The position numbers and the translations under genes were made by a program. The notes under the pieces were generated by a model. The model saw nothing but the letters and a program-made list of their open reading frames with translations, did not search any database and was not told the DNA's origin. From Fischerella sp. CENA71 (lineage in GTDB: Bacteria > Cyanobacteriota > Cyanobacteriia > Cyanobacteriales > Nostocaceae), in contig JANBVI010000038.1 in assembly GCA_024239075.1 (NCBI GenBank), positions 1 through 51,097 on the forward strand: a stretch of DNA of 51,097 nucleotides, given 5' to 3'. Positions 8,997-33,979 of the stretch are shown piece by piece. Position 1 is the first letter of the stretch. The number at the start of each line of letters is the position of its first letter.

Positions 8997-9075
8997 TTTT
9001 AAAAGTGTGATCGCGTAGCCGGGCATTAGTATTTAGCAACTAATCAAGTTAGTATCCAAAGCTTTGAAACTTGAC

Positions 9076-9180: not shown

Positions 9181-9352
9181 CGTAAGCCGTAAACAAAAAA
9201 ATACTGAAAAATTTCCTTTTTTTTTGGAAACTCAGTATGAAATAGTGTAAATACTTAAAAGATAAAAATATTACTGGTTACCAAAGCCTATCAGCAGACA
9301 GCAGATCTGCTAACTGGTGGTTGCTAACCGCTAATTGCCTTAATTCATAGTC

Positions 9353-13844: not shown

Positions 13845-14308
13845 CGGATTTGACTGAACAGCAACAAAAATTTGAGCAGCAAAGAGAAATACAACAAAAA
13901 GAGCTCAAAATTCAAAAAGAAATTCGTCAAATTGAAGATGATTTAGTCATCGCTATTGAAGAAATATTAAAAGATAAAGAATCATGTAAAAATTTAGAAG
14001 AATCTCAATATCGAAATTTAATGCATGTTGCAGATACAACAGAAAGTATTGAAGTCATCAAGAATTTTTTACGCTATCAGTTAGGTCGTAATAAAAAGTG
14101 GGGTGTAGGAGAAAATTCAATTGCCCAAAGAATTATTAATGATATTGATAGTTTACTTCAGCAGAAAGCAAAAAAAATTGTCGAAGAAGTTAAGTATATA
14201 GAAAAATTTAAACTTGTTTGGTTAGAATTAACCCGTCGTTATCTTGGCTACGGTTCTCGTCGTCTCAAGTACATTAATACCAATGACAGTAATAACTCTG
14301 AAAGTTAA
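13841..14308 (+). CDS. Small subunit (Cas11/Csm2-like) of the III-D complex
   Basis: About 155 aa, all-helical and charged. The first 40 residues are Glu/Gln/Lys-rich coiled coil, followed by helices with YRNLMHVADTTESIEVIKNFLRYQLGR and a basic C-terminus. Position after csx10 in a III-D operon and helical character fit the small subunit that lines the target-RNA channel. The start at 13841 (MTDLTE) is chosen because it forms a 4-base ATGA overlap with csx10; an upstream start at 13802 would add 13 residues inside csx10. Confidence 0.7.
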   Translation: MTDLTEQQQKFEQQREIQQKELKIQKEIRQIEDDLVIAIEEILKDKESCKNLEESQYRNLMHVADTTESIEVIKNFLRYQLGRNKKWGVGENSIAQRIINDIDSLLQQKAKKIVEEVKYIEKFKLVWLELTRRYLGYGSRRLKYINTNDSNNSES

Positions 14309-14323
14309 TCTTAGGTAAAAAAT

Positions 14324-16253: not shown

Positions 16254-16759
16254 GTGAAAAACCTCTTTCAACAGATAAACTAATCGAGCGATTGGAAGAA
16301 CTGACAATTGCACCCAGTTACTATTTTTTACGTTGGACGCATCGAGTAGGGGGGTTTTGGAAACGAAGAAAAGATAAATTTGCCAACTTGGAAGATGATA
16401 TCCGTGATCGCTTAAAAAACTCTCCTATCAATGGTGTGATTCCAAAACACCCCGAACCCTTTCCTAGTCCACAAGGACAACTGTTTAACTCTGTGCTGGA
16501 AGTGCGTTGGCAGATTAAGCAAGGTAAGTATCAGGTATTGCTACTGGGTTCACAAGAGGCAGTATCGGGTTTTAGGGCGATCGAACGCAATTGGGAAATA
16601 ATTGAGCAAAATGTACTCATACATCCCCAAGATGAGACTCGCTTTCCCAAAGGACTGGAATCGGATGCAGTCAATAATATTGCCCAACGCTATTTTCGAG
16701 ACAAGAACACAGCTACGGTTCACTTTGTCGCCTTAACGTTAAAAAATTCCCATGAATAA
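16235..16759 (+). CDS. Csx19-like type III-D accessory protein
   Basis: A 174-aa soluble protein with no RAMP glycine loop. Visible features are WLSEKPLSTDKLIERLEEL, a basic stretch GGFWKRRKDKF, and a central beta-rich block QGQLFNSVLEVRWQIKQGK then YQVLLLGS. Type III-D operons usually encode the small structural protein Csx19 at this place, between Csm3-type genes, so Csx19 is the best candidate; the identification is by context and size, not by a motif I can verify. The start overlaps the preceding RAMP by 19 bases and the end overlaps the next gene by 8. Confidence 0.55.
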   Translation: MCKVWLSEKPLSTDKLIERLEELTIAPSYYFLRWTHRVGGFWKRRKDKFANLEDDIRDRLKNSPINGVIPKHPEPFPSPQGQLFNSVLEVRWQIKQGKYQVLLLGSQEAVSGFRAIERNWEIIEQNVLIHPQDETRFPKGLESDAVNNIAQRYFRDKNTATVHFVALTLKNSHE

Positions 16760-17795
16760 CAGTTCTTATCGCTCTAATAACAATGGTGGTTCAGATGAAC
16801 GCGCACCTGCACCATACGAACTCGTTCGGTTTCCAGATAAACCACCCAGCGCTTGCACTCCTCCTGGACATGATAAATACCTAAGCAATTGCTTGCACGG
16901 TACTTTGTTTCTGACTCTCCAAGTACAGACAGCGCTGCACGTTTCCACTGGAGTAGCTGTGATGGGTAGTGATATTGATAAAAATGGTATACCCCTAATC
17001 AAGACAATGGAGCAGGGGGTAGATAAAACACTGTTGATTCCAGGTAGTTCTTTAAAAGGTTGTATTCGTGCTATCTATGAAGCAATTACTAATAGTCGCT
17101 TAGGCGTAAAGCCAACAACCAATAAACCACCTGATCGCTTACCTGCTCGCAGACAAAATGAAATTTGTCCGGCGGGAGTTGTTTTTGGTGCATCGGGAGA
17201 TAATTGGGGTTGGCAAGGATTAATTAACATCCGAGATGCACGCTGTAACACAAATGGTTTTGGTGTTGGTTATATGCCTGCTTTATGGTCGCCAAAACCT
17301 CATGGAGGCAACTATTATCATAAAGGTCAAATTGCTGGACGTAAGTTTTATTATCACATGGTTCGTGCTTTAGATAAAGGTGAAAAGGATGGAATTCGCG
17401 TCCAACAAGCAAGTAGAAACTATACTTTTTCAACACAGATACACTTTAGAAATCTTCAATCTAAAGAACTAGGAGCGCTATTAATTGCTTTGGGGCAAGA
17501 CTCGAATTATCCCTTTGCACTCAAACTAGGAGCAGGAAAACCCATTGGTATGGGAACAATGATAGTGAAAATCCCGGCAGTGCAGGTGATGCAAAATCAA
17601 GATGATTTATGTAAGCACTATAAGTCTTTCTCCAATCCAGATGATGCAAAATTAGAGGGCAAACTATTGCAGCAATTTATTCTTCAACACATACAAGCAG
17701 CCCACAATCAAAATTTAATTGAAAAGCCACAGTTAGAACAATTAAGTCAAATTTTAACTTATCCCAGTACCCGTCAACCTTACGATAATTACTAA
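16752..17795 (+). CDS. Cas7-like RAMP (Csm3 family), type III-D
   Basis: A 347-aa RAMP with a disordered Asn/Ser/Pro-rich N-terminal extension (about 1-45), then LFLTLQVQTALHVSTGVAV, an acidic loop with D74 and D76, and LLIPGSSLKGCIRAIYE (about 94-110). A cysteine pair (C37 and C47) and C137 are noted without evident zinc motif. The C-terminal glycine loop is KLGAGKPIGMGTMIV. It is the fourth RAMP in the operon apart from Csx10 and shares a 1-base TAATG junction with the next gene. The role may be an additional backbone or 3'-end subunit. Confidence 0.75.
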   Translation: MNNSSYRSNNNGGSDERAPAPYELVRFPDKPPSACTPPGHDKYLSNCLHGTLFLTLQVQTALHVSTGVAVMGSDIDKNGIPLIKTMEQGVDKTLLIPGSSLKGCIRAIYEAITNSRLGVKPTTNKPPDRLPARRQNEICPAGVVFGASGDNWGWQGLINIRDARCNTNGFGVGYMPALWSPKPHGGNYYHKGQIAGRKFYYHMVRALDKGEKDGIRVQQASRNYTFSTQIHFRNLQSKELGALLIALGQDSNYPFALKLGAGKPIGMGTMIVKIPAVQVMQNQDDLCKHYKSFSNPDDAKLEGKLLQQFILQHIQAAHNQNLIEKPQLEQLSQILTYPSTRQPYDNY

Positions 17796-18502
17796 TGGCT
17801 GTTTATCTCGACGAACGCGCTTATTCGTTAACAGAATATGAGTCACAAATCGCGCACAACATTGCACGGATTTTGGCTGAAGAACAAATATCACTCAATC
17901 GTGAATCTCGCTCTAATTCCGATGGGATTAAGACTGAACTAGAAAAAGTCATTGCTTATTTTTATGCAAAAATTCGTCAAGCTGAGGGTCAGAGCAAAAA
18001 CAATGTATTATCTATTTTATTTAACTATTTAGACCATTTAGTCAAATACGGTAAACAAATTGGGCATACAGGTAATATCCCTAAATATTATGACAGTATT
18101 CTCTATGCCTGCGAACAATACTTTGACATCAAACAGGACAATGCTGCTAGAGTATTAACAATACTCGGCTGGTCGGCACGCTTAATTCGTTTTTATAAGC
18201 AGAAAATTGAAAGTGGCGAAGTCTTACCTGCAATTGCACCTGTAGTGAAATCAGCTCCAGAACCCAAAAGCCAGACCACTGCAAATCAATTCCAGAAATT
18301 TGAAATTAACCAGATACTCGATGCTACAGTAGTCAAAATTACTGGTAATAAAGTTTCCTATCAAGTAGGGGATATTTTAATTCCCAATGAAAGAGAACCC
18401 AAACATGCCAAAAATTTACAAGAAAAACAAACAGTCAAAGTCAAAGTGACGGGAATTAAAGAAGACAGCAGTATCAAACACGTTAAATACTATAGTAGTT
18501 AA
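17795..18502 (+). CDS. Unfamiliar III-D operon protein: helical domain plus OB/S1-like tail
   Basis: A 235-aa soluble protein. Residues about 1-145 are helical (YESQIAHNIARILAEEQ, LFNYLDHLVKYGKQ, VLTILGWSARLIRFYKQK). A Pro/Ser linker (about 152-167) leads to a beta-rich end, FEINQILDATVVKITGNKVS...GDILIPNEREP...VKVKVTGI, which looks like an S1/OB-type nucleic-acid-binding fold. It is the last gene of the operon, starting at the stop of the RAMP (TAATG). I do not recognise a named family. The tail suggests RNA binding, perhaps in crRNA trimming, complex assembly or signalling; that is inference. Confidence 0.6.
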   Translation: MAVYLDERAYSLTEYESQIAHNIARILAEEQISLNRESRSNSDGIKTELEKVIAYFYAKIRQAEGQSKNNVLSILFNYLDHLVKYGKQIGHTGNIPKYYDSILYACEQYFDIKQDNAARVLTILGWSARLIRFYKQKIESGEVLPAIAPVVKSAPEPKSQTTANQFQKFEINQILDATVVKITGNKVSYQVGDILIPNEREPKHAKNLQEKQTVKVKVTGIKEDSSIKHVKYYSS

Positions 18503-19570: not shown

Positions 19571-20277
19571 TTTTCAGTCCCCTTGCGGGGTAATAGGTTT
19601 TAGAAACAAAGAGGACGCGATCGCGTTATGCAATGCTTTAAATAGTTTCAGTCCCCTTGCGGGGTAATAGGTTTTAGAAACCAGAAGAGGAACGGACACC
19701 GATTACAATCACACCTCGGGTTTCAGTCCCCTTGCGGGGTAATAGGTTTTAGAAACGGAGATCCAATCCCAATTGCCTTAGCATCGCGTAGTTTCAGTCC
19801 CCTTGCGGGGTAATAGGTTTTAGAAACTGAAGCCTCAGATACTCCAGGGCATTTAAGATTATTTTATGTTTCAGTCCCCTTGCGGGGTAATAGGTTTTAG
19901 AAACTCATTATGAATTTAAACAGGCGATCGCACTGACTGAGTTTCAGTCCCCTTGCGGGGTAATAGGTTTTAGAAACCTGACGCCCTGCTCCCAATTGTG
20001 AACTGTTCCCTGGCTGTTTCAGTCCCCTTGCGGGGTAATAGGTTTTAGAAACATCTTTATTTAATGAATATTTTAAATGCGAAGATTCTCTGTTTCAGTC
20101 CCCTTGCGGGGTAATAGGTTTTAGAAACTTAAGTTAAGAGTTTCCATGATGCTACAACTACTCATGTTTCAGTCCCCTTGCGGGGTAATAGGTTTTAGAA
20201 ACCGGTATACCCTATCACAGAGGATACACAATGGCTATTGGTTTCAGTCCCCTTGCGGGGTAATAGGTTTTAGAAAC
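19571..20277 (-). CRISPR. CRISPR array 3 (type III-D associated): 10 repeats, 9 spacers
   Basis: The 37-nt repeat, written on the minus strand, begins GTTTCTAAAACCTATTA, has the hairpin CCCC-GCAA-GGGG and ends GACTGAAAC. Plus-strand starts: 19571, 19645, 19720, 19791, 19868, 19941, 20015, 20092, 20165, 20241. The copy at 19571 has T in place of G at its first base and is the distal one. Spacers are 34-40 nt. The repeat differs from array 2 only near the 5' end. Transcription is minus strand, toward the III-D operon, from a leader at 20278. Confidence 0.97.
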
Positions 20278-20540
20278 TGCTCGATGCTGAAACTTAATCA
20301 GAGCAAGCTTCCTGGGAAGGCTTTTGACGAACCCCAAAAATAGGTCTATTTCAGCCACCCTTATTGCAATTTATTTGCAACTTTTCCAATACTTGAAACG
20401 CTATAAGTATTATCTTGTCAAGGTTCTGGCGATTTTGGCGAATACAGGGGGTTTTTGACCCCGCTTTGACTTGCCAAAATTTAACTTAGTTAACTCAAGA
20501 TAATACTAGCTTGATATATTGTCAAGATTTTTCGTTAGGG
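20278..20540 (-). promoter_or_regulatory. Leader of CRISPR array 3
   Basis: Reverse-complement homologue of the array 2 leader. On the minus strand it carries GCCAGAACCTTGACAAG (within 20416-20440), a TTTTGACGAACCTC-like segment near the array, and at its far end (about 20494-20525) the TTGACAATATATCAAGCTAG box seen at 6551. These conserved positions define promoter and integration-side signals. Confidence 0.65.
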
Positions 20541-20619: not shown

Positions 20620-20890
20620 TTGATTCAGCAAAGATTATGTAAGGGGAACCAGACGCTTCGTTCTGGTTTAATGCAGTCAGCTCATGTAGCATCTCGTTCC
20701 CGTACTTATCTTGCTGCTCAATTTCGTCGCATTGCCACACGTCGGGGTAAAAAGCGTGCAACAATGGCTGTTACTCACTCAATATTGGTAATTGCTTACC
20801 ATATTATTCAGCGTCATGAACCATATAGAGAATTAAGAGTTAACTATTTTGATCAACAACGTGCAGAAACTTTTCATCCACAGCAACACA
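20620..20890 (+). pseudogene. IS110-family transposase fragment (C-terminal)
   Basis: The frame reads TLRSGLMQSAHVASRSRTYLAAQFRRIATRRGKKRATMAVTHSILVIAYHII, then PYREL.VNYFDQ, the characteristic C-terminal Transposase_20 region of IS110/IS1111 elements. The catalytic N-terminal DEDD domain is missing and the last 25 residues diverge. The fragment lies between the array 3 leader and the decayed distal end of array 4. Dead relic. Confidence 0.75.
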
Positions 20891-20934
20891 CTTTGCTGCC
20901 TACTTTCGCCTACAGCGCTCTTTCAAGCTAGTGT

Positions 20935-21774
20935 CTTACTTTCCCCCGAACGGGTTTCATTTATTTGAAAGTCGTACTGTGGTTTTGCCTGATGGCTCTC
21001 CTACTTCTTGTTTCAATCCCGCGAACGGGTTTCATTTATTTGAAAGTCGGACTTGGGAAGGTCGAGACCCGATGTGGTTTGTTTCAATCCCGCGAACGGG
21101 TTTCATTTATTTGAAAGTTTGCTGATACCTAGCACTAGTTGGGTATGGAACTTGTTTCAATCCCGCGAACGGGTTTCATTTATTTGAAAGGTGATTGGGT
21201 TGGCTCGATTGTAGTAGTTGTAAGCAGAGTTTCAATCCCGCGAACGGGTTTCATTTATTTGAAAGGTTCCAAGGCTTTAACAACCTTGCTATCATTGAAT
21301 AGTTTCAATCCCGCGAACGGGTTTCATTTATTTGAAAGTTAAAGGTAGACAAGTAGTAATAAAAACTGAAAGTTTCAATCCCGCGAACGGGTTTCATTTA
21401 TTTGAAAGACCAAGAAATCAGAGGAAACTCAAGATGCAGTTGCCTGTTTCAATCCCGCGAACGGGTTTCATTTATTTGAAAGTCTGTTTTTTAATTTCTT
21501 CTTTAGGATAATATTGTTGTTTCAATCCCGCGAACGGGTTTCATTTATTTGAAAGCCCTCTACAACTTCCTGTCAATGCCTGCATAAATCTCTGTTTCAA
21601 TCCCGCGAACGGGTTTCATTTATTTGAAAGCTCGTAGCTCTGTCGCTAACGACCACTTGAGTGTCGTTTCAATCCCGCGAACGGGTTTCATTTATTTGAA
21701 AGTAGAACTTGATGATATAAGTCAATTACGGCTGTTTGTTTCAATCCCGCGAACGGGTTTCATTTATTTGAAAG
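20935..21774 (-). CRISPR. CRISPR array 4 (type I-D associated): 12 repeats, 11 spacers
   Basis: The 37-nt repeat, read on the minus strand, begins CTTTCAAATAAATGAAACC, has the short stem CCCG-TTCG-CGGG and ends GATTGAAAC. Plus-strand starts: 20935, 21010, 21081, 21154, 21229, 21302, 21372, 21446, 21519, 21594, 21666, 21738. The copy at 20935 is degenerate in the half away from the leader, marking the oldest end. Spacers are 33-38 nt. The newest, 21703-21737, is a synonymous variant of a spacer in array 5. Leader at 21775. Confidence 0.97.
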
Positions 21775-21985
21775 TCGGCCAGCCAGAAGTTAATCACAGA
21801 GCCATTCCCAACCCCACTTTTGGCAGGTCTACTTTAAAAGTCCGTTTCCGGCATTTATAACTAGGCTCCATGTTCCTACTGAAACTGCTGAAACTATTGA
21901 ATTGTCAAGGTTCTGTCGATTTGGCGGGAGGTAGGGGGTTTTTGCCTATGCTTCGCCCTGCCAAAATTTCACTTGTATTATAGCA
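21775..21985 (-). promoter_or_regulatory. Leader of CRISPR array 4
   Basis: On the minus strand it carries CAAAAACCCCCTACCTCCCG and GACAGAACCTTGACAATTC (21902-21927 region), homologous to the array 5 leader at 31938-31998. It lies between array 4 and cas2, with transcription toward the array. Confidence 0.65.
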
Positions 21986-22279
21986 TCATAGTATTATCGT
22001 CTCTTGCTGTCGTGGTTGCTCCGAACCATAGGTAATAGTCTTACGTACTGCTCCAGCATCCAAAACATAAATACGTACTGAATCTTCAGATGGTTTGATC
22101 AAACTCTCAACTTGCACTTTTAATTTAGCAAACTGTACAGCATTTAAAAAACATTCAAACACACTGTACTGCGTCCAAGTTCCGTAGCCAGAAAGCATTT
22201 TATGTAATTTAGTTCGCCGCTTATTCGCCTTTTTATTATCTGGCAAATCATAAATTATGAGGTAGAACAAAGTAGTCAT
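21986..22279 (-). CDS. cas2: Cas2 adaptation endonuclease-fold protein
   Basis: A 97-aa Cas2 with the N-terminal ferredoxin strand LFYLIIYDLPDNKKANKR carrying D11, KLHKMLSGYGTWTQYSVFEC and the C-terminal VRIYVLDAGA. Cas2 dimers bridge two Cas1 dimers in the spacer-integration complex. ATGA overlap with cas1. Last gene of the I-D operon, next to the array 4 leader where new spacers would be inserted. Confidence 0.95.
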   Translation of the reverse strand: MTTLFYLIIYDLPDNKKANKRRTKLHKMLSGYGTWTQYSVFECFLNAVQFAKLKVQVESLIKPSEDSVRIYVLDAGAVRKTITYGSEQPRQQETIIL

Positions 22280-23256
22280 CGCGGTGTCAGGGCTTTATAC
22301 GGAACCCCCTCCTGTAGATGTCGGCTCAATAAACGTGCCTGCAATTCGATCGCACGACGATAGCTACAACGATAGCCAAAGGTGGGATGCTTAAACTCAT
22401 CATTCATTTTTCGCTCCCATGCTTGTAAAAACTGTTTACGTCCAGATTCCGAAAGTCGATATGCACCCAGATGATCAGTAAAATCGTTGGGCTTAATTTC
22501 TTTATGGCTGATGACCGAAAGTATTAAGTTATCAGCAACGAGAGGACGAAATTCTTCTATGGCATCCAATATCATTGCTGGTTGTCCTCTGGTAGCTTCG
22601 TGTAGATAACCAACGTAAGGGTCTAAACCAGCCATGTGTACAGCAGCAGTTACTTGTACTTGCAAAAGACCATAAGCAAATCCCAGTAACGCATTTATTG
22701 CATCTGTTGGAGGACGACGATTTCTCCCGTTAAATGACCATTGTTCCTCAAGCATTGCCGACCAAGCAGCAAAATATTCTCGTGCAGCTAATCCTTCAAC
22801 ACCTCGTACTTCGTCAAGAGTTGTCTGTTCTTTAACTAGCTGTTTGCGAGATTTGAGAGGATTATCTTTCTGGTCATGGCGGTATAAAACACTATGTTGA
22901 TTTTGAATCTTACCAATAACAATTGTTTTGGCAATCTCCAAACGATGAGCTTCGTCATAATAAGCAGCATACTGCGCCAACCGTAATTGACCGTTACGAG
23001 AGTACCCCGGAAGAGCCGACCCCAAATATTTACCAAAGCCAGAAAGATAATGCACAGGCATCCCCAGTTCTAAAGCATAGACCAGAGCATCACCAGTGAT
23101 CTGCGGATTTCCCATCAATACAACTTGTTCGACAGTTTGAGCGGGAACTGATTTTTTCTCCCAACCACCATCTTCTTGTTTTAAAGCAACTTTAAAAGCT
23201 TCGGCCGCTTTACTTAGTACTGCATCAGGTTGAGTTACATAAAGAATAGACATCAT
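22276..23256 (-). CDS. cas1: Cas1 spacer integrase
   Basis: A 326-aa Cas1. The beta-sandwich N-terminus includes VVLMGNPQITGDALVYALELGMPVHYL. The metal ligands are E154 (RGVEGLAAREYF), H219 (GYLHE) and E234 in ILDAIEEFRP. It integrates prespacers at leader-proximal repeats with Cas2, with Cas4 trimming PAM ends. Coupled to cas2 by ATGA; cas4 ends one base before its start. Met2 is an alternative start. It is the only cas1 in the window, so it may serve the III-D arrays as well. Confidence 0.95.
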   Translation of the reverse strand: MMSILYVTQPDAVLSKAAEAFKVALKQEDGGWEKKSVPAQTVEQVVLMGNPQITGDALVYALELGMPVHYLSGFGKYLGSALPGYSRNGQLRLAQYAAYYDEAHRLEIAKTIVIGKIQNQHSVLYRHDQKDNPLKSRKQLVKEQTTLDEVRGVEGLAAREYFAAWSAMLEEQWSFNGRNRRPPTDAINALLGFAYGLLQVQVTAAVHMAGLDPYVGYLHEATRGQPAMILDAIEEFRPLVADNLILSVISHKEIKPNDFTDHLGAYRLSESGRKQFLQAWERKMNDEFKHPTFGYRCSYRRAIELQARLLSRHLQEGVPYKALTPR

Positions 23257-23841
23257 TTAAACCTCAAGACGTAATTTTTTGATTTCTTTTGGCAAGCAAA
23301 TTTTCTGTAAGCTGCAATCTTGGCACTTTTTCGGGTGGTCTATTGGTGAAGGCATGATGCCACCTATGACAGCCCGCGCTGCTGAAATTGCTTGTTCTGT
23401 AGCTTGTCGCAATGCAGATGTAAAATCTACACGTTCACGGCGGCGGTTGGCGTAGTAAAATATTTCGCCGTAAGCAATAGAGCCTCCTATACGCTCTTCC
23501 AAGCATAAAGCTGCACCACACAATTGAAAATGATCGCTCTTATGGTTTGCCATACGTCCCTTTTTAAATTCCACAGGAACGAGCTGGCTATCTTTTTCTT
23601 CTACTGCATCGATAATGCCGTTAACCAGAAGGCGATCGCTCCATAGCCATTGATGTCGGTAAACTACTTTGTCACCTTCAACATTCTTGCCTTCGTCATC
23701 AACATTGCGGTGCAGATGACGACCAATAATCATGTGTTCGTTATCTGCATTTTCCCCAAGCTCGTATTCCAGAAAGAAACGACGAGGGCAATATTCCCAA
23801 GCATTTAGATAAGCTAGGGGGAGATAGTATTGTTCGTTCAT
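23257..23841 (-). CDS. cas4: Cas4 RecB-like nuclease
   Basis: A 194-aa Cas4. The iron-sulfur ligands are C18 (YCPRRFFLEYELGE) and the C-terminal C173, C176, C182 (CQDCSLQKICLP). RecB-type motifs are H41 region (IIGRHLHRNVD) and VPVEFKKGRM; QLCGAALCLEE is motif III. In I-D it selects PAM-containing prespacers. ATGA overlap with the preceding cas6. Confidence 0.93.
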   Translation of the reverse strand: MNEQYYLPLAYLNAWEYCPRRFFLEYELGENADNEHMIIGRHLHRNVDDEGKNVEGDKVVYRHQWLWSDRLLVNGIIDAVEEKDSQLVPVEFKKGRMANHKSDHFQLCGAALCLEERIGGSIAYGEIFYYANRRRERVDFTSALRQATEQAISAARAVIGGIMPSPIDHPKKCQDCSLQKICLPKEIKKLRLEV

Positions 23842-24701
23842 TTGATGTTAGTCTCAAAACTCTTTCGACAAGGTTTTTTCCAATTCTGAGTTTTTGAATT
23901 GCTTAGTTGTGTCTGTCCCATCCCCATTGCAGTTTTACGCCCTACCCCAGCAAAGAAAGCAAAATTTGCCAAAATAGTGGCAATCCGAGCCGTTTGGGGG
24001 TTACTAAATCGGTAGCGAACCCAACCCTGCGCCCCAACTTCTGTACCTCCTTCCATTTTGAGTGCGTAGGTTTTAAGATCGTAGGCTGTAACTAAAGCAT
24101 CCCACTCATAAGCCGGAAGATGAAATTGCTCTGGTGCAAAAATATTCCACCGTCGATGCAGCGAGTTAAACACTAATTCGGGTAATGGAAAAGTTTGTAC
24201 TCCTTGACTTTGCTTGAAGCTAGTAGGAGAGAGGAAATACATTTCAATATCTGTCAACACTTGCGTCGGGTGTGACAGTAACCCATACTCAGCTGCACCT
24301 GCTAATTGATGTGTTCCTGGCAATGCATAGATATTTCGTAATACAAACGGAAAATCACCTAGTACTATAGATTGAGTTTCTGATTGTTCAAACCCGCGCA
24401 TTAAAGGTTCAACTAAACTACCATCTAATAAGCTAATCCGAAAATAAAAATAATCTCCGACACGCACTCCGCTTGGACGACGGTTTCCTAATAACCCCGA
24501 AATTGTTAATGGTGAATTTTGACTAGCATGAATAGTTTCGGCAACAGATGGGCTGGCTGCTGCAAACCATTTAAGTACTAGTGCGTGCAATGCACGAGAT
24601 AAAGTAGGTGGTATGTCTCCCACATCTGCAGCTGCAAGTTCAACAACAATTGAATGCAATGTGGAAGATTTATGCTGTTGCTGCAACATTTCCTGCTCCA
24701 T
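23838..24701 (-). CDS. cas6: Cas6 of the type I-D system
   Basis: A 287-aa Cas6. Markers are FLSPTSFKQSQGVQTFPLPELVFNSLHRRWN (about 161-190, given in part) and the glycine-rich loop GVGRKTAMGMGQTQ (about 254-267). Unlike the III-D Cas6 it lacks the HTH tail. It should process the ATTGAAAC-type repeats of arrays 4 and 5 and stay bound to the crRNA 3' hairpin. The start is uncertain: Met1 overlaps csc1 by 32 bases and Met5 (24689) by 20. Confidence 0.9.
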   Translation of the reverse strand: MEQEMLQQQHKSSTLHSIVVELAAADVGDIPPTLSRALHALVLKWFAAASPSVAETIHASQNSPLTISGLLGNRRPSGVRVGDYFYFRISLLDGSLVEPLMRGFEQSETQSIVLGDFPFVLRNIYALPGTHQLAGAAEYGLLSHPTQVLTDIEMYFLSPTSFKQSQGVQTFPLPELVFNSLHRRWNIFAPEQFHLPAYEWDALVTAYDLKTYALKMEGGTEVGAQGWVRYRFSNPQTARIATILANFAFFAGVGRKTAMGMGQTQLSNSKTQNWKKPCRKSFETNIK

Positions 24702-25461
24702 AAAATACTCCTGTAGGTAAATAAATTTCTTCTGGTAGCTGTTGATATTGAAGTTCCGTTAAAGTTGACTTAAAATTTTGCCAATCATCTTTTTTTGTTG
24801 CTATATATTCACCGCGTAACTGTGCCTGACTGACTAAACTAACAGGAGGCATAACAACCCGGTTATAAAGTAATATTCGAGTATTACTTGGCAAATCTAA
24901 CGGATTTAAAGGATGCAAACAGGTGTAATCACCAGTTTTAGTATGCATAACTTTATCTGGAATTTTTACAACTTCAACCCTGATTTTTGCAGCCCATTTA
25001 CCCAAGCGTATCCAACGCGGTATTTTGGTAGTTTCAGGAGCAATAATATAGGTACGATATACACTCCCAACAGCTATTTCTTTAGCTCGTCCATAATTAA
25101 TTGGGTAATTCTTATCTGCACCTTTATCTCCAAACTGTTTTGATTTGCCATAATAGCCAACTTGAGCAGCTTTAAAGGTATTAATTTGATATGACCAATT
25201 GATAGGTTGAGCAGGAAATACATAAATTCCAGCTTGATTTAGATGAAGAAGATTTTGTTCAGCACTTGCATCTAAATATGTTGGTTTTTGTGCCAGTTCT
25301 CCTTGGAGTCGATATAGTTGGGGAATGTAATGAATTGCAAAAAGTGCAAAGCTTAATCCCCAGTTATGTAAATATTTTTCTGTTTCATAAAGAATCCCCA
25401 TCTCCCGCGTAGCAAAGAAAATATTATCATGTAGCGTCAACGTGCAATGATATACTGCCAT
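24670..25461 (-). CDS. csc1: Csc1 (Cas5), type I-D Cascade
   Basis: About 263 aa. MAVYHCTLTLHDNIFFATREMG is a typical Cas5-like (Csc1) start, given here with its first residues; the middle has INYGRAKEIAVGSVYRTYIIAPE and the end LPEEIYLPTGVFYGAGNVAA. It caps the crRNA 5' handle. The start at 25461 is preferred over one seven codons upstream because AAGGA stands about 9 bases ahead of it and the family starts here. Downstream of csc2 with a ~70-base gap. Confidence 0.9.
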   Translation of the reverse strand: MAVYHCTLTLHDNIFFATREMGILYETEKYLHNWGLSFALFAIHYIPQLYRLQGELAQKPTYLDASAEQNLLHLNQAGIYVFPAQPINWSYQINTFKAAQVGYYGKSKQFGDKGADKNYPINYGRAKEIAVGSVYRTYIIAPETTKIPRWIRLGKWAAKIRVEVVKIPDKVMHTKTGDYTCLHPLNPLDLPSNTRILLYNRVVMPPVSLVSQAQLRGEYIATKKDDWQNFKSTLTELQYQQLPEEIYLPTGVFYGAGNVAATA

Positions 25462-25532
25462 AGCAAAATCCTTTAATTGCATTGAAATTTGGGTTAAGGT
25501 GGAGTGTTCACCTTAACACCAACAAATAATAG

Positions 25533-26528
25533 TTAATCCTTCTTACCTTTCTTCTTCAATGCTCCAAAGGATTCTGCATAGGCTTTAGTTTGTCCATAGA
25601 GTGCATTTATTGTTTCTACTAAACGAGCTTCATCTTGATACAGTGTGCTGACTTCATCTAGCAGTTCTTCTAATTGCGAACCAAAAAGTAGTTTTGTTTT
25701 GCGTACAGGTTCATCGTTAAGTAAATTATTTGCCACTTCTTCTACCTGCTGTAAAATATCAGCAATCGGGGCATCACCCTTCAAAGCATCATAAAGTGCT
25801 TGAGTGTAATGCAAGTTGCTAAAGATTTCGCCATCGCAGAATGCAATCCCGGCGATATAGTTTTTCATCGTTCCTGTCCGCGATTCCTGTGCGCCATAAC
25901 GTTTAGTACGCAGCAAGTTACCCAGAACATAGATAAAACCTTCGTAAGTAGGGTCACGCAGAGTTTCAACTGTGGGGAATGTTACTTCTGGAATCACATG
26001 GTCTAATTCATTGATACTGCTACGCATTTCTCCTGCTTCACTCATTGTTCCACCTTCAAAAGGAGCGTTAAAGGTAAAGCTGCGGTGTGATTCCTCGTAA
26101 GCACTTAGAGAAAAAGCCGAGTCTGAATATACTTTGGAACGTTCAGACCCGCTATCGCCGATCGCAAATCCATAAATAATACAATCAGGACACTTTTTAC
26201 ATGATTTCTCGCCGTTGTATTCACAGTATTTATCTTTGTTGCTTTCATCGGCGCTAGTCAGATTCAAACTGCGAAGTAATTCGCGTCCAGCAAGTCGTTC
26301 GGGAGTCGTCTGTTTACGCTTGAACATTACCAAACGGCTGATTTGTTTTTTGCTTTCATCTGTAATACCTAGACCAGCTTGTGTGCGTGCAGTATTAAGG
26401 ATTCCATCAGTTTGAAATACTGGAAATGATTGACTGTGACGCAATAGGATGAAATGGACGTACTTACCAGATGCTAAACGGGGAAATGCAGATTGGAATT
26501 CGGGTTTTAAAGTTGCTAGAACGCTCAT
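25533..26528 (-). CDS. csc2: Csc2 (Cas7), type I-D Cascade backbone
   Basis: About 331 aa from MSVLATLKPEFQSAFPRL. RAMP features: KYVHFILLRHSQSFPVFQTDG, the cysteine cluster CEYNGEKSCKKCPDCIIYGFA (C-x7-C-x2-C-x2-C, probably zinc), FNAPFEGGTMSEAGEMRSS, and RYGAQESRTGTMKNYIAG. Csc2 copies coat the crRNA; in I-D they also confer ssDNA cleavage. The frame runs 17 codons further upstream to 26579, but the internal Met is the normal family start and has AAGAG ahead of it. Confidence 0.92.
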   Translation of the reverse strand: MSVLATLKPEFQSAFPRLASGKYVHFILLRHSQSFPVFQTDGILNTARTQAGLGITDESKKQISRLVMFKRKQTTPERLAGRELLRSLNLTSADESNKDKYCEYNGEKSCKKCPDCIIYGFAIGDSGSERSKVYSDSAFSLSAYEESHRSFTFNAPFEGGTMSEAGEMRSSINELDHVIPEVTFPTVETLRDPTYEGFIYVLGNLLRTKRYGAQESRTGTMKNYIAGIAFCDGEIFSNLHYTQALYDALKGDAPIADILQQVEEVANNLLNDEPVRKTKLLFGSQLEELLDEVSTLYQDEARLVETINALYGQTKAYAESFGALKKKGKKD

Positions 26529-26579
26529 GATTTTACTCTTGATAATTTTGATTGAAAGGTGGCTACAAAAATGAAACAA

Positions 26580-29501
26580 TTAGGATGATTTTGCAGATTT
26601 CTCTTGCAAAGCTAACCAATGGTAGGCAAATTTTGCCCCAGATTTAATGCGATTGCGGTTTTCTTGTAATAAAGCGCGATCGCCTTTATAAAGTTCGAGA
26701 AATAATTCCTGTACACAGGTTGTCATAAATGTATGAATTGCTGTTAATTCGCGTTCTATCCTTGTGGCTTTATCAACTGATTTATCCATCATTAAAGGGC
26801 GTTTATAGACTTCTTGGCGTTCTAACGCATCTTGAATTTGTCCAGAAGCTTGCAATATTAAATCATCGACATCAACTTGTTGGGGAACTGATAAAATCAT
26901 TTCCAATGCTTTTGATAGTGGCAGTAAAATGGTGTGGCTCGATTCATTGAGATTTGCTTGATAAAATACTCGATATTGTTGCACAATTTTTTCCGTAATT
27001 TGCATAATATATGCTCCTTGATTTGTGGCTGAATTATCTTGTTTTACCCAGGCTTGGGCATATTGCCAATAACGTTTAACTTCTTCTTGGCTGGGTATAT
27101 CTCGTTGCTCACGTCGCAATCCTTCGGTTGCTAAAGCAAAAATATTGAGTACATTTGTTGTTACCTCGCGCACTGTTTTAATTAAATCTCGCCATTTAGC
27201 ATCGGGGGGAGAACTACGAGTATCTAAATGAAGACTATAGGCAAATAAAAGCCGTTGCATAGCATTTTGAAAATCTTGAATTCGCAGAGAATTAGACAAT
27301 CCCAGCAAATTCCAAAATGATGCAGGAGCATCGAGAATTACAGATTCTCTAAAATCGCGATCACTGTTATATAGGGGAACTGAACTACTAGTGGCTATGA
27401 CTTTTACTCCGAGTAAAATTGGTAGCGATAAAGCTAGGAAAGCAGGTTGTACCCACGCATCGGTAAGGGTTTTACCTCTGGTAGTTGTATAATTGATTGC
27501 CATAAAAGGCAAGTATTCTTTATTGTATTTATCGTTGTGAAAGCGTCCTGATGTGGCTTCTTCTGTTAACCAAGCAACTGATTGCAAAGCATTGATATTC
27601 ATCTCCTGTTCTAACCATTGCTTGCGAACATCCCAGAGATTAATCTGTTTCATATTGTTCACTAACAATTTGATAGCTACTGCTGTTTGGGGAGAATAAA
27701 CATAAGCGGGGAAGATATATAAAAATACTGGTTGTTGTTCTTCTAACTTGCCAGCAGGGACAGCCCAAAAAGCTTGACGCATTAACATTTCTAAAGCATA
27801 TATTTTAGAAATTCCGCGTTTAATTTGTCTACCACCCAAAGCATTTTTATTACTATATTGTTGTGGTTTAAATAACACTACAGAGTCCATTTGGTCTTCT
27901 GAGGCAAATTCACCAGAGCTTAAGGAACAAATTGGTTGTTTTGCAGCTTTGGTTTTCGCATCAGTATAAGCTGTAAATTCAGCCCTGAATGAGGGATAAT
28001 TGCTTGACCAGCCTTTAACTTCTAAATATTGCGTTAAATATTGAGAGAAAATTTCACGGATGGGGCTAGAATGTGGAGGGAGTAAGTTGTTCTCACTTGC
28101 CCAATTAGCTAAATCTTCTGCCCAAATTTCCATTCGTTCTGAGATTTCTTCTGATTTTAAAGTTGCATGGGTAGCAACATAATAAGCAGCTCCATGATAC
28201 CAACCATAATTTACACCTCCTGATTGAACTTGGGTTTGTTCGGGTGAGATTTTATCTTGTATTCCTAATTTATTGAGCATCCAAGTGATATATTCTGGTG
28301 AATCACCAAAAAACTCTTTCTGTGTTAAGAAAATAAATTCAGCGATTTTATCAGCGCGAATATCTGCACCTTGGTTGAGAAATTCTCGTTCAGTTGCAGT
28401 TAAATCTAATTTTTCTAACCGTTTCGGTGTTGCTGGGTCTTTGCTATTTGCTACTTTGACCTCAATTACCCTTGGTAGTTTGGGAATTAGTTCTTCTGGC
28501 GCAAATAATTCTATGGTTTGAGGTGCAACTTTTAAGCCTTTACCATCTCGCTTAAAGCCAATATCGCCACCCATCATTTTATTTGCTAAAACTCCGCTGA
28601 TTTGCTCCCAAATAAATTCTTGAAGTTGGTGAATATCTGGAGTTTCGCTATCTGGTGGTGCTAGGTAAATTACACCTTGAGCAAAAAATAAAATTGGTTC
28701 CCAATCGAGTTGTTTAGCAAAAATCATTATGGCGTTATGAATACCATTACTTAAAATTCCGATGGTATCTCGCAAGCGATGATAAACCAAAGTTTTGTTA
28801 ATATTCAAACGTCGCAATTGTTCCCGCAACCTATCTCCTCCGGTTTGAGTATCAATATCGCCGGGGTCAGTGAAATGGACTGCAATATCGCCAAAAGCTA
28901 GCAGCCGACGCAGGGGATTTTCTAAACGACGACGGTCGGGAATTTTTGGTACAGCCCAGTTAGAAGGATAAATATTTGTACCAGCTTTATTTTGCGTATT
29001 TTGTGCTAAGTAAGTAATTTCTATTAAATATTCTTGCCATTCTGACCAAAATAATTGAAAGTTAAGTTTTTCGCCTAAATCACGACAGAGATTTATAATT
29101 TCTGTGACTTCGGAATTTTTGGGTGTTTCTTCTCCTTGTCCGTTGCAATATTTGTTGTAATCGTGCAGAGTTAAACCTAAACAAAGGAGATATTTTTCAA
29201 TTTCCGATAAAGGTTGCTGTAAATGTTTGCTGATGTTCCAAGCTGTGAGTAAGCCATTAAGAACATGAACCAATAAGTTTTGGTCAGCACGGCTTGACCA
29301 TCTTTGTGCATTTTCTTGAGCAAAGCGGTCTCCTAACTGAGACAATAGTTGATAATGCGCTTCATAACTTCCACCTAAAGCGGAAATTGCGGTAAATTCT
29401 TGTTCGAGATGTGGCAGTAATTTCTCAATATAGGAACGTAAAATTGGGTCTGTATCTTCTGGAAGGGTTTCGATGAGGAGAGTTTGCAGGAGGGTAGACA
29501 T
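26580..29501 (-). CDS. cas10d: Cas10d (Csc3), large subunit with HD nuclease
   Basis: A 973-aa Cas10d, the type I-D hallmark. The N-terminal HD nuclease is visible: H79 (NLLVHVLNGLL) and H113-D114 (LGLTLHDYNKY). No GGDD cyclase motif is present, as expected for Cas10d. It replaces the HD part that Cas3 lacks in this subtype and helps recognise the PAM. It ends directly before the csc2 region in one operon; 122 bases containing a repeat hairpin separate it from cas3'. Intact length. Confidence 0.94.
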   Translation of the reverse strand: MSTLLQTLLIETLPEDTDPILRSYIEKLLPHLEQEFTAISALGGSYEAHYQLLSQLGDRFAQENAQRWSSRADQNLLVHVLNGLLTAWNISKHLQQPLSEIEKYLLCLGLTLHDYNKYCNGQGEETPKNSEVTEIINLCRDLGEKLNFQLFWSEWQEYLIEITYLAQNTQNKAGTNIYPSNWAVPKIPDRRRLENPLRRLLAFGDIAVHFTDPGDIDTQTGGDRLREQLRRLNINKTLVYHRLRDTIGILSNGIHNAIMIFAKQLDWEPILFFAQGVIYLAPPDSETPDIHQLQEFIWEQISGVLANKMMGGDIGFKRDGKGLKVAPQTIELFAPEELIPKLPRVIEVKVANSKDPATPKRLEKLDLTATEREFLNQGADIRADKIAEFIFLTQKEFFGDSPEYITWMLNKLGIQDKISPEQTQVQSGGVNYGWYHGAAYYVATHATLKSEEISERMEIWAEDLANWASENNLLPPHSSPIREIFSQYLTQYLEVKGWSSNYPSFRAEFTAYTDAKTKAAKQPICSLSSGEFASEDQMDSVVLFKPQQYSNKNALGGRQIKRGISKIYALEMLMRQAFWAVPAGKLEEQQPVFLYIFPAYVYSPQTAVAIKLLVNNMKQINLWDVRKQWLEQEMNINALQSVAWLTEEATSGRFHNDKYNKEYLPFMAINYTTTRGKTLTDAWVQPAFLALSLPILLGVKVIATSSSVPLYNSDRDFRESVILDAPASFWNLLGLSNSLRIQDFQNAMQRLLFAYSLHLDTRSSPPDAKWRDLIKTVREVTTNVLNIFALATEGLRREQRDIPSQEEVKRYWQYAQAWVKQDNSATNQGAYIMQITEKIVQQYRVFYQANLNESSHTILLPLSKALEMILSVPQQVDVDDLILQASGQIQDALERQEVYKRPLMMDKSVDKATRIERELTAIHTFMTTCVQELFLELYKGDRALLQENRNRIKSGAKFAYHWLALQEKSAKSS

Positions 29502-29547
29502 AAAAATTCAAAATTTTAAGTAGAAAGGTGGCAATAATTAAAGGTTG

Positions 29548-29615
29548 GTAGTAAGGACTACCCTTCGGGAACGCTCCGCTAACAGTCCTTATTTGAGGAC
29601 TAAAGTCCTTACTAC
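29548..29615. repeat. Interspersed hairpin GTAGTAAGGACT...AGTCCTTACTAC
   Basis: Perfect 12-nt arms at 29548-29559 and 29604-29615, with a further copy of TCCTTATTTGAGGA between, lie in the cas3'-cas10d gap. A TAGTAAGGACC variant occurs near 35791. This is a dispersed short repeat type of Nostocales. It could attenuate or stabilise the operon mRNA; no T tract is present. Confidence 0.6.
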
Positions 29616-29623
29616 GAAACGAA

Positions 29624-31759
29624 TTAAAATATTGAAGATTCAAAGCGGGTGGTGGTGAATTTTTTTAAGCGCCACTTTAAAGCTTCGAGAAGTAATGCAT
29701 CCTGATTGAATGCACAGGCGTAAGTTTGTTCACTAGCGTCAACTAAGCGGTATAAACCAAATAAAGGACTGAGGTTAAGGGTACGGCTAACTTCCCAATG
29801 GCTATTTTGTTTGTTTTTGTTGACTGGAACTAAGAAAGTAAGGAGTTTCTTTTGTCGCAAACAGTTAATTACATCAGCTTGTGGATGTCCGATGAGGGTT
29901 AATTTATCTAGCAAGTAAAGTTCGCCAATTGGTAATTCGCTACTTAGATGATTGGTATGTAAACTCAGATGCTCAATTCGCTGTTCAACCCATGATTGAA
30001 TGCGAAGATAAACATTGATAAAATCATCGGAAAATTCTTCTTCACCTCGTCCGGAGTTATTAGCTGCATTTAAAAATGTCTCGCGGTCGATAATTTCTAC
30101 TCGCGCATAAGGTAAAAGTCGTAGCAAGTCGTAAGTGTAAAAATTATTGTGATCCCAAACCCCAGCTTGGAGGGTAGAACCTCCCCGAAACCGTAAAAGT
30201 TCTTGTTGGGTGGCTTTACCAATAAGGGTATTTTGCATTCCGAACCACTGTTTACGTGCTGAATTAAAATCTTGGGAATATACGCGAACTAAATCTGCTG
30301 TCATGTTAGTACGCACTAATTCACTGACTTGTTTATTCTCTTGCATCATCCGCGAGAACATTCCCTGTGCTTGCAATGCACCCCAACGCTGACGATATTG
30401 TTCAAATTCTTTGGGTGGGTCAAAGGCGTAGGCGATCGCATCTGCTAAAAGCTCTCTGGTGACTGTCTGATGGGAACTGAGTTTTTCTTGCAGTCTCGCC
30501 ATTACCCAAGGAGTATGACCAGGAATCAAAATAAATGCTTTGTAAGTATTAAAACCTGGATGTCTCCCTAATCTTCCCAAACGCTGCGTTACTGTTGCAC
30601 AGTCGCTACTTTCAAAAATCAACAGATGAATTTTGAAGTCCACACCAACATCAACCGCGGATGTACCCACCACTAACACTGGCTGTTGTGCATTTTGCAA
30701 GTCGCTTTGGACTTGCAATCTTTGTTGTCTGTCGATACGTCCGCTAATTTCACGAACAATTACCCCTGTTAATAATGCATCTAGCAACCGAGTTACTTGA
30801 CCAGCTTTCGCCACAGAATTAACTATAATTAATCCCCTGGCACAAGACTCTGCATTTAAAATTTGCCCAATGGTGGGAATCATTTCCTGTAACCATGTTT
30901 GCGTATCTGCATCCTTGGCTAATACCACCAACTCTAATTCCGCAGCTTGCAGAATTTGGCGAAATCCTGGCTTGGCTTCACTTGCATAAACTCCCTTTAC
31001 CTCAGCTACTTTAAACCCAGCTGTGCGTAACTGTTGCATAAAATCGGGTTTCGGCGTGGCGGAAGTAAATAAAAACCGTCGGGGACGGAGTTGATTTTCT
31101 TGGCTGCGACGAATAAAAGCCAAACTATTTAACGCCGCTGTTTCTTGATGACTCCCAAAAATATGAAATTCATCAAATACCCACAAATCAGGCCATTCTG
31201 CCAATACTAATGGTAGTTGATCGCTACCATAAGCCGGGTCACGGTATTGAAAGTGAGTGATATAATGGAAGATATCGGGGTTAGTTAGCAAAATTGGCTT
31301 TTGTTCAATCGCCAGCAGTAACTCTTGAAATTTATTACTTTTAATTGCTTGCTTTACCCTTGTGCTTAATTCCGCACCAAATAAACGGTCTACTCGTTGA
31401 GCAGCATCTAACCCAAACAGTGCATGATATTTGTATTGCTGTTGCGCTTGGTCTTCCACAAGTTCAATTGTGGGATATAACCCCATGATGCGAAAATCAG
31501 GATTGATGAGGGTTGGTAAATTTGCACCCAGGCTTTTACCATCTCCTGTTGCCGCCTGATTAGAGATAATATCTGCATCACCATGTATAATTTCACGATA
31601 AGTGTTCGCTTGGTGTGATGAAAGTGGACAGACGCATCCGCCGGGTGGTTGAAGGTCGCTAGCTCTTTGTGTGACAAGGCATTTAGACTTACAGCCAAGG
31701 GGACAGTTCTCAAATCCTGGGTTGAGTTGAGAGTAAAGAGGTTGTAAAGAAAGTTTCAC
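29624..31759 (-). CDS. cas3: Cas3' helicase (HD-less), type I-D
   Basis: A 711-aa superfamily 2 helicase. Walker A is AATGDGKSLG (69-78), motif II is DEFH (VFDEFHIFGS) rather than the usual DExH DEAH, motif III is FTSATP, and motifs V/VI are VVGTSAVDVGVDF and TQRLGRLGRH. No HD domain, as in I-D, where Cas10d carries it. The N-terminus has a cysteine cluster, C19, C23, C27, C42, C44, that could bind zinc or iron-sulfur. First gene of the I-D operon; unwinds target DNA after Cascade binding. Confidence 0.93.
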   Translation of the reverse strand: MKLSLQPLYSQLNPGFENCPLGCKSKCLVTQRASDLQPPGGCVCPLSSHQANTYREIIHGDADIISNQAATGDGKSLGANLPTLINPDFRIMGLYPTIELVEDQAQQQYKYHALFGLDAAQRVDRLFGAELSTRVKQAIKSNKFQELLLAIEQKPILLTNPDIFHYITHFQYRDPAYGSDQLPLVLAEWPDLWVFDEFHIFGSHQETAALNSLAFIRRSQENQLRPRRFLFTSATPKPDFMQQLRTAGFKVAEVKGVYASEAKPGFRQILQAAELELVVLAKDADTQTWLQEMIPTIGQILNAESCARGLIIVNSVAKAGQVTRLLDALLTGVIVREISGRIDRQQRLQVQSDLQNAQQPVLVVGTSAVDVGVDFKIHLLIFESSDCATVTQRLGRLGRHPGFNTYKAFILIPGHTPWVMARLQEKLSSHQTVTRELLADAIAYAFDPPKEFEQYRQRWGALQAQGMFSRMMQENKQVSELVRTNMTADLVRVYSQDFNSARKQWFGMQNTLIGKATQQELLRFRGGSTLQAGVWDHNNFYTYDLLRLLPYARVEIIDRETFLNAANNSGRGEEEFSDDFINVYLRIQSWVEQRIEHLSLHTNHLSSELPIGELYLLDKLTLIGHPQADVINCLRQKKLLTFLVPVNKNKQNSHWEVSRTLNLSPLFGLYRLVDASEQTYACAFNQDALLLEALKWRLKKFTTTRFESSIF

Positions 31760-32122
31760 CTTACTTACCCTGTGTGATTTGCACTCAGTTTACTACTGGT
31801 TTCGGGAATGTTGTCATCAAAATTTGATATCAATGCTTTTTTCCCGACATAAATAACACTGTTTAATTTTTGTAAAGTTATCCTTTGTGTTAGTAAAAAA
31901 ATTAGCTTATAATCTGCAAATCCAGCTTAGTTTTTGGCAGGGGAAAGCATGGGCAAAAACCCCCCACCTCCCGCCAAATCGCCAGAACCTTGACAATTCA
32001 ATAATTTCAGAGTTTTGAGTAATCTTTGACTCACTGTTTCTCACAGATGAAATGGACTTTTAAAACAGTCCCGCCAAAATTACTTATAGAACTCGCTCTG
32101 TAACTCGGTTGTGGCTGGCGGC
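31760..32122 (+). promoter_or_regulatory. cas3' upstream region and leader of CRISPR array 5
   Basis: A 363-base divergent intergenic region: the I-D operon fires leftwards and array 5 rightwards. The leader part (about 31930-32122) has CAAAAACCCCCCACCTCCCG and GCCAGAACCTTGACAATTC (31981-31999), matching the array 4 leader base for base over long stretches, and CGGACTTTTAAA-like sequence nearer the array. Confidence 0.65.
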
Positions 32123-33979
32123 CTTTCAAATTAATGAAACCCGGCAACGGGATTGAAACTTTTTCAGCCAGCATCTCAATCTGTGCCGACGTTTTCTTTC
32201 AAATTAATGAAACCCGGCAACGGGATTGAAACTATATAGTGTCAGAGACTTTGTACGTACCGATAGGGACTTTCAAATTAATGAAACCCGGCAACGGGAT
32301 TGAAACGAAGCAAAAGCCATGGCGACCAAGTACTTTATCTGTCTTTCAAATTAATGAAACCCGGCAACGGGATTGAAACATTAATAGGTTTTTCTTCAAC
32401 GCTCTTTTCATCTTCATCTTTCAAATTAATGAAACCCGGCAACGGGATTGAAACATTGATGAATTATTGCCTGCGATCGCAGGTAGCGCGCTTTCAAATT
32501 AATGAAACCCGGCAACGGGATTGAAACCACCAGATCATCCCTTCACTGGGAATCTGCCAAAGACTTTCAAATTAATGAAACCCGGCAACGGGATTGAAAC
32601 ATCATCGTATCTTGCCAACAAAGCAGCGCTAATGTACTTTCAAATTAATGAAACCCGGCAACGGGATTGAAACATTCCTTCAAAATCAGAAAGAGTGTAA
32701 GCAAAATATCTTTCAAATTAATGAAACCCGGCAACGGGATTGAAACAATGAATTGGCGTGTCTCCTCGTATTCCTGCTCACTTTCAAATTAATGAAACCC
32801 GGCAACGGGATTGAAACGATTGGTCGCAAGTAAAAGCGTTAGCCTTAAGACTTTCAAATTAATGAAACCCGGCAACGGGATTGAAACAAAACAATGGCTA
32901 ATAGCAGAAAACAAAAAAAAGCTTTCAAATTAATGAAACCCGGCAACGGGATTGAAACTGCTTAGTGAAAATATGCGTTATGGCAAAGAATTACTTTCAA
33001 ATTAATGAAACCCGGCAACGGGATTGAAACAGTTTTTGGCGAGTTTTCGGCTTGATATTGTCAAACTTTCAAATTAATGAAACCCGGCAACGGGATTGAA
33101 ACAAACAGCCGTAATTGATTTGTACCATCAAGTTCTAGCCTTTCAAATTAATGAAACCCGGCAACGGGATTGAAACACTCTCCACTACCTTTGTTAATTC
33201 GAGGGTTTGAATCTTACTTTCAAATTAATGAAACCCGGCAACGGGATTGAAACACTTTTTAATCCTTTCTGCTCAAGTTCAATTAAAGCTTTCAAATTAA
33301 TGAAACCCGGCAACGGGATTGAAACAGATACAAGTTCTATATAGTTTTCAAACATTCGTTCTTTCAAATTAATGAAACCCGGCAACGGGATTGAAACTAA
33401 GCTTTCGCTCCTTGAAAAAAAGCTGTGGCCAGCTTTCAAATTAATGAAACCCGGCAACGGGATTGAAACCTAAGTCATTGGCTGCTATCGAAAGCATTAA
33501 CAATCTTTCAAATTAATGAAACCCGGCAACGGGATTGAAACTATTTAATATTGTCGATAAGCAAGCCGCTCAAACTTTCAAATTAATGAAACCCGGCAAC
33601 GGGATTGAAACATTGCGATCGCGATAACGCCGCGATGCTTCATTAGAACTTTCAAATTAATGAAACCCGGCAACGGGATTGAAACTAGGCATGTCTTTTA
33701 TAGTGTTTAATTTACTAGTACACTTTCAAATTAATGAAACCCGGCAACGGGATTGAAACTAAAAATCAAATTTTACATTGGATGAAACTGCAAGCTTTCA
33801 AATTAATGAAACCCGGCAACGGGATTGAAACAGGTAAACAATGAAATTTATTTAGTTTTGAAAAATAACCTTTCAAATTAATGAAACCCGGCAACGGGAT
33901 TGAAACTTGAAGCGGGAGTTATTAAAGCAGGCTACAAACCTGCTTTCAAATTAATGAAACCCGGCAACGTGATTAAAAC
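32123..33979 (+). CRISPR. CRISPR array 5 (type I-D associated): 26 repeats, 25 spacers
   Basis: The 37-nt repeat begins CTTTCAAATTAATGAAACC, has the stem CCCG-GCAA-CGGG and ends GATTGAAAC, two or three changes from array 4. First repeat 32123-32159, last 33943-33979; the last is degenerate (GTGATTAAAAC), the distal end. Spacers are 33-40 nt and all differ. Spacer 14 (33103-33139) is the synonymous partner of the newest spacer of array 4. Longest array in the window, plus-strand, leader next to cas3'. Confidence 0.98.

Follow-up and report, generated by a model that had tools for sequence, protein, structure and literature searches.

The type I-D CRISPR (clustered regularly interspaced short palindromic repeats) system of Synechocystis recognizes a GTN protospacer-adjacent motif (PAM). 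As a 2023 review outlines in the portion available to us (PMC10212523), Cas4 trims the PAM end of incoming type I-D spacers and an unknown nuclease trims the other end, and the seed of type I systems lies at the PAM side. A group of DNA polymerases found in the cyanophages A-1 and N-1 and in cyanobacterial plasmids has been described by Chenard et al. (2016; excerpted text, PMC4916379). Here we report on a 51,097-nt stretch of the genome of Fischerella sp. CENA71 (contig JANBVI010000038.1, in full the window), in which two CRISPR arrays associated with a type I-D locus, arrays 4 and 5, carry a natural pair of guides with differences confined to silent positions of what is probably a single viral gene. 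The pair probably represents one protospacer taken twice, from diverged phage relatives, and located in the family-B DNA polymerase gene of an A-1(L)/N-1-like cyanophage. We infer a phage of this kind as the real target, and two separate uptake events.

The spacers concerned, the first of array 4 and the fourteenth of array 5, share 32 of 35 bases counted from their common first base and begin with the same AAACAGCCGTAATTGA; at its 3' end the array 5 spacer extends 2 nt beyond its counterpart. The positions, the degree of identity and the shared start, all noticed earlier in a sequence-only reading of the window, were recovered when both arrays were re-read. Each of the three differences is a transition: C/T at position 17, A/G at 20 and T/C at 23. 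Only two of the six reading frames are open in both spacers. In the plus-3 frame, which encodes TAVIDLYHQVL, all three changes occupy codon third positions and are silent; in the minus-3 frame all three replace a residue. The six-frame reading therefore bears out the claim that the differences are spaced 3 nt apart and silent in the TAVIDLYHQVL frame.

An all-against-all comparison of the 64 spacers present in the five arrays of the window (2,016 pairs, both orientations, score cut 13) yielded two pairs above the cut: the array 4/array 5 pair (score 26), the sole match between different arrays, and an exact duplicate within array 2. The latter consists of spacers 3 and 5 of that array (6988-7024 and 7136-7172), which agree letter for letter, as do the repeats preceding them, and it is a segmental duplication inside the array. 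Duplication thus does happen here and, taking into account that 11 kb separate arrays 4 and 5 and that their repeats are similar, one could propose that a single spacer was copied between them by recombination and mutated afterwards. Each spacer of the pair is, however, bordered by repeats of the type found in its own array, the two types being distinguished by 5 of 37 positions, and a copied fragment would therefore need ends placed exactly at the spacer edges. Moreover, the array 2 duplicate is letter-perfect, whereas the pair shows three silent transitions and a 2-nt difference in length, and random mutation yields such triples in just 1.6 to 7.6% of cases: in simulations, 318 of 20,000 random-substitution triples and 1,529 of 20,000 random-transition triples were all silent in an open frame. 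We consider copying after a single uptake highly improbable.

The proposed target gene was found with relaxed patterns in the IMG/VR database. Patterns with free third codon bases gave four loci and those tolerating conservative replacements gave eight, and all 12 were read. One of them, L037, is a virus contig of 15.8 kb in which the gene of a family-B DNA polymerase reads ETAIIDLYHQVLQWDF in frame. Its long open frame (KETAIIDLYHQVLQWDF) matches TAVIDLYHQVL at 10 of 11 residues, and the codon GAA preceding the motif fits the leading AA of the spacers. The protein is recognized by Pfam models of family-B DNA polymerases, the motif (residues 197-207) being placed inside an RNase H-like exonuclease match (residues 83-271). 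A similar DLYH stretch occurs in archaeal family-B polymerases. Among the other loci, L031, L032, L033, L034, L036 and L038 were rejected with frames of 19 to 42 amino acids, as were L027/L028 and L029/L030, which are in-frame matches in other phage proteins.

Nineteen phage records are related to the L037 polymerase. Seven of these are A-1/N-1-like phages (58-60% identity), whose hosts are Nostoc, Anabaena and Dolichospermum, and the remaining 12 (10 of Salinibacter phages and 2 uncultured) reach at most 31%. The L037 contig contains 16 open frames of at least 100 amino acids and is collinear with both A-1(L) and Dfl-JY23. These two phages have counterparts to 11 of the frames. Two of the 11 run antisense to the matching genes, and the remaining nine keep the gene order of A-1(L): a hypothetical gene, the helicase and polymerase genes, two for tail fibres, those for baseplate and sheath initiator, and the central spike gene. 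At the aligned site, TAVIDLYPAVLQWDF (TAVIDLYPAVL, 9 of 11 residues) is found in the polymerases of A-1(L), YongM, YongM2 and Elbi, TAVVDLYYAVLQWDF (8/11) in that of Dfl-JY23 and TAVVDMYPAVLQWDY (7/11) in that of N1; six of the seven cultured records were compared, the second A-1 record being left out. An alignment-based scan of IMG/VR, limited to two peptide patterns and liable to miss some members, returned the L037 contig and three loci at 22% identity; a chance match falling on such a rare group is therefore improbable.

Polymerase relatives are also carried by cyanobacterial plasmids (32-41% identity), and the target might accordingly be a plasmid polymerase of the same family rather than a phage one. 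The polymerase of a Gloeothece plasmid reads VGVIDLYHQTLSWDF at this site (8/11), and relatives with an E-value of up to 1e-20 are present in 52 of 210 genomes of the family. Apart from the Gloeothece plasmid, however, the aligned plasmid and genome relatives (6 of the 28 plasmid records, and the genome matches listed) retain at most 5 of 11 residues, against 7-10 in the phage type, and the initial TA of the motif is confined to the phage type among the aligned sites. For this comparison 62 loci were searched and 60 were aligned; the sites of two phage loci, L044 and L046, which showed 0 residues owing to an alignment insertion, were taken from a separate alignment. We therefore judge a plasmid target unlikely. 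No polymerase relative (E up to 1e-20) was found in the CENA71 genome or in four genomes of the same genus, and hence there is no sign of a resident invader. The A-1 terminase was not found in the genus either, in a search made without a positive control.

Arrays 4 and 5 lie at opposite ends of the type I-D locus (Table 1), in which cas10d/csc3, csc1, csc2 and cas3' all exceed curated cut-offs and which has adaptation genes of its own (cas1, cas2 and cas4). The leaders of both arrays are homologous (local alignment score 138, compared with a best value of 26 in 500 shuffles) and their repeats are identical at 32 of 37 positions. Since leaders and repeats are alike and the arrays occupy both ends of the locus, one adaptation module could serve both. 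The homologous leader lying above 21774, together with the degenerate repeats at the leader-distal ends of the arrays (20935-20971 in array 4 and 33943-33979 in array 5), places the array 4 spacer on the leader side, which agrees with its earlier description as the newest of that array.

The identical PAM-side boundary postulated in the same reading is also supported, since in type I arrays the PAM side of a spacer is its 5' edge, which the pair shares. A PAM-end cut by Cas4 combined with loose trimming of the other end predicts a common 5' edge and unequal 3' ends, as observed in the pair, where the latter differ by 2 nt. In the mechanism that we propose, two diverged phages of one group would have supplied the same protospacer, which the I-D adaptation module (Cas1, Cas2, Cas4) took once into each flanking array. 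This protospacer would be the exonuclease-domain stretch TAVIDLYHQVL of the family-B DNA polymerase of an unsampled A-1(L)/N-1-like cyanophage; the PAM cut would have set the common 5' edge, and variable trimming of the opposite end would account for lengths of 35 and 37 nt.

Table 1. Location of the spacer pair, the arrays with their leaders, and the type I-D genes within the window
Feature	Position	Strand	Details
Array 4 spacer 1	21703..21737	minus	35 nt, AAACAGCCGTAATTGACTTATATCATCAAGTTCTA; leader-proximal of 11
Array 5 spacer 14 of 25	33103..33139	plus	37 nt, AAACAGCCGTAATTGATTTGTACCATCAAGTTCTAGC
CRISPR array 4	20935..21774	minus	11 spacers between 12 repeats of 37 nt; leader-distal repeat degenerate (5 mismatches)
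CRISPR array 5	32123..33979	plus	25 spacers between 26 repeats of 37 nt; last repeat degenerate (2 mismatches)
Array 4 leader	21775..21985	minus	aligned over 21775-21990 with the homologous leader of array 5
Array 5 leader	31900..32122	plus	local alignment with array 4 leader
cas2	21986..22279	minus	TIGR01573
cas1 of type I-D	22276..23256	minus	TIGR04093, 399.5 bits, cutoff 385
cas4	23257..23841	minus	TIGR00372; PAM-end trimming in type I-D (PMC10212523, in part)
cas6	23838..24701	minus	TIGR01877
csc1 (cas5)	24670..25482	minus	TIGR03159
csc2 (cas7)	25533..26579	minus	TIGR03157
cas10d/csc3	26580..29501	minus	TIGR03174
cas3' helicase of type I-D	29624..31759	minus	TIGR03158

Several results weigh against the proposed double uptake from a phage polymerase gene. 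No exact or near-exact protospacer was accepted in any of the collections searched, and the best DNA identity between a spacer and a candidate site is 26/35, which is not good enough for the protospacer itself. GT was found at the aligned PAM position in 0 of 7 phage-type sites, none of which is a true target (AAG in L037, AAC in the six others). Given its chance rate, the silent pattern taken alone is only moderately improbable, and hence suggestive but no proof. The L037 contig was chosen by a search for this same peptide, and its score is thus not an unbiased test. In favour of the match, a score of 54 was obtained with the real pair and equalled in 0 of 1,444 usable shuffles made from the array 4 spacer; among 320 shuffled spacers, one came to 53 (a cysteine-rich fluke). 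A competing in-frame match, L035, has 8 of 11 residues in a 461-amino-acid frame without a Pfam match. None of the other spacers among the 64 exceeds shuffles against the L037 contig. Compared with A-1(L), Dfl-JY23 and the polymerase region, the sixth and fourth spacers of array 4 (A4-6, 23/33 or 0.697; A4-4, 25/36 or 0.694) barely pass the top of 64 shuffles (0.692); both are AT-rich and their matches are taken as background. The peptides of the other spacers do not beat shuffles against the same three sequences, although this test is weak, as the A-1(L) site itself would score 39 and shuffled controls reach 44.

The searches for the protospacer covered several collections. Within the CENA71 genome only the two spacers themselves matched, and two codon patterns gave no match in IMG/VR. 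One match among GTDB contigs, in a 160-amino-acid stop-to-stop frame of a Cloacimonadales contig, was rejected (about one chance match is expected by rough estimate). When the array 5 spacer was compared with phages and plasmids by blastn, 80% of the query was nowhere covered; the match with the lowest E-value, in Providencia phage PSTCR6, is antisense to the polymerase gene of that phage and was dismissed as chance. No protospacer was accepted in 386 genomes of the phylum (zero mismatches allowed) or in 5 genomes of the genus (2 mismatches allowed). In 218 genomes of the family (2 mismatches), 10 genomes besides that of CENA71 matched, compared with 18 for a reversed-pattern control. Seven of the 10 matches were read in frame (L004-L008, L012 and L013; the letters of L009-L012 are the same as those of L008) and all were rejected: L004, L007 and L013 have long frames whose proteins are, by eye, unrelated to each other and to the polymerase, and the frames of L005, L006, L008 and L012 have only 18 to 29 amino acids. 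Searches of phages, plasmids and virus contigs with the peptide and the spacers have therefore produced a relaxed in-frame match in a polymerase gene and no exact protospacer.

It could be argued that the polymerase match is coincidental and that the target is an unrelated gene, since the exact target was not found and the relaxed patterns also match other genes in frame (L027/L028, L029/L030 and, at 8/11, L035). Against this, the in-frame match falls in a conserved motif of phages infecting Nostoc, Anabaena and Dolichospermum, likely members of the host's family, and the cultured relatives retain most of TAVIDLY..VL. In our opinion a coincidence of this kind is very unlikely. The double sampling from diverged relatives put forward in the sequence-only reading is thus supported and a gene can now be proposed for it.

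There are several ways in which one site may have come to be sampled twice. A-1(L) has 8,087 GT sites on both strands, and if all 36 I-D spacers derived from this phage by uniform naive sampling, 0.03 coincident cross-array pairs would be expected; some non-uniform choice of sites is therefore likely. Hot spots, priming, or the retention of spacers against a conserved site are possible reasons. In the part of a marine survey available to us (PMC6401485), matches to DNA polymerase genes were 1.6 times more frequent than expected. A special case, compatible with the double uptake of a phage site, is primed adaptation, in which the array 5 spacer, with three PAM-distal mismatches to a diverged phage, would have bound this phage, failed to clear it and steered uptake of the same site into array 4. 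A mismatched spacer pair is indeed present, the type I seed as delimited in the consulted portion of PMC10212523 falls within its 16 identical PAM-side bases, with the mismatches at 17, 20 and 23 outside it, and the low number of coincident pairs expected favours a non-uniform process such as this one. The crRNAs (CRISPR RNAs) of both spacers would likely cross-recognize both variants, because the identical bases include the seed. On the other hand, naive adaptation would produce this edge as well, owing to PAM-anchored processing, and the shared boundary is thus equally expected without priming and does not call for it. The order of uptake is not readable from spacers residing in different arrays, no other spacer is linked to the A-1/N-1-like group (by the weak test given above), the 2023 review states, in its accessible portion, that data on type I-D priming are lacking, and no claim of such priming was found in the titles and abstract openings returned by a literature search. 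Priming is, in our view, possible and somewhat doubtful. We suggest even more tentatively that the pair may be a natural footprint of interference-driven I-D priming, in which an older, imperfect record of the polymerase gene steered uptake of an updated version into the second array. Were this so, the host would have refreshed a memory rather than added a new site.

The window and related genomes contain further CRISPR features. The three other arrays of the window lie within 5.8-20.3 kb, and a type III-D gene set, assigned by Csx10 and Csx19, is located at 7884-18502. Array 3 (19571-20500) has a different repeat and a leader resembling those of arrays 4 and 5; judging by this leader, it may be served by the same adaptation module. 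Between arrays 3 and 4 (20620-20931) there is a short open frame, by eye only a possible transposase remnant, and positions 46490-46829 are occupied by dense tandem repeats of a CGAAGGCTCCGG-like unit, spaced mostly by 12 nt. Elsewhere in the CENA71 genome there is a second csc2 (G000:C55:155024-156058; 48% identical, with one TAA counted in the match), and about 5 kb from it an array with a different repeat, GTTGCAACTAACATTAATCCCTATTAGGGATTGAAAC (at ~1.4-2.1 kb of locus L022, G000:C55:159001-178000). In one genome of the genus (L024, G388:C8:2024000-2043000), an array at ~15.7-16.8 kb of the locus, near a csc2 gene, holds two adjacent spacers from overlapping protospacers on opposite strands, with 23 identical bases; this pair is a further case of repeated sampling of one site in the genus. 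Another genome of the genus (L026, G389:C1:6154000-6173000) contains a csc2 fragment (83 residues, 87% identical) together with an array of five repeats, the first of which is the same as that of array 4. This seems to be what is left of the same I-D locus, and the four spacers of this array resemble none of the 64 of the window. No Cas10d relatives were found in viral contigs by the related-locus scan.

The guide pair constitutes a ready-made test of I-D priming, a question that the 2023 review lists as open in the portion available to us (PMC10212523), and the polymerase gene ties the Fischerella host to A-1/N-1-like phages. For the unsampled phage we predict a polymerase gene that reads [K/Q/E]TAVIDLYHQVL and contains AAACAGCCGTAATTGA preceded by GTN.

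Repeated sampling and primed adaptation in other type I systems have in common with the Fischerella pair the same site, the same 5' edge and diverged targets; unlike those cases, the present pair was read from a genome and the divergence between its two records is silent. With the type I-D system of Synechocystis, as far as the consulted portion of the review describes it (PMC10212523), the locus shares cas10d, csc1, csc2, cas3', cas1, cas2 and cas4, and the spacer edges fit a cut by Cas4 at the PAM side and loose trimming at the opposite one; it differs in that the Fischerella operon is flanked by two arrays, with one protospacer recorded in both. Compared with the DNA polymerase B of A-1 and N-1 (PMC4916379, in excerpt), the spacer frame matches an exonuclease-domain motif at 7-9 of 11 residues in six cultured phages and at 10 of 11 in the IMG/VR relative, whereas the identity of the spacer DNA to these genes is at most 26/35. 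The double record of one viral site is therefore a known kind of event, for which a target gene can here be proposed with good support.

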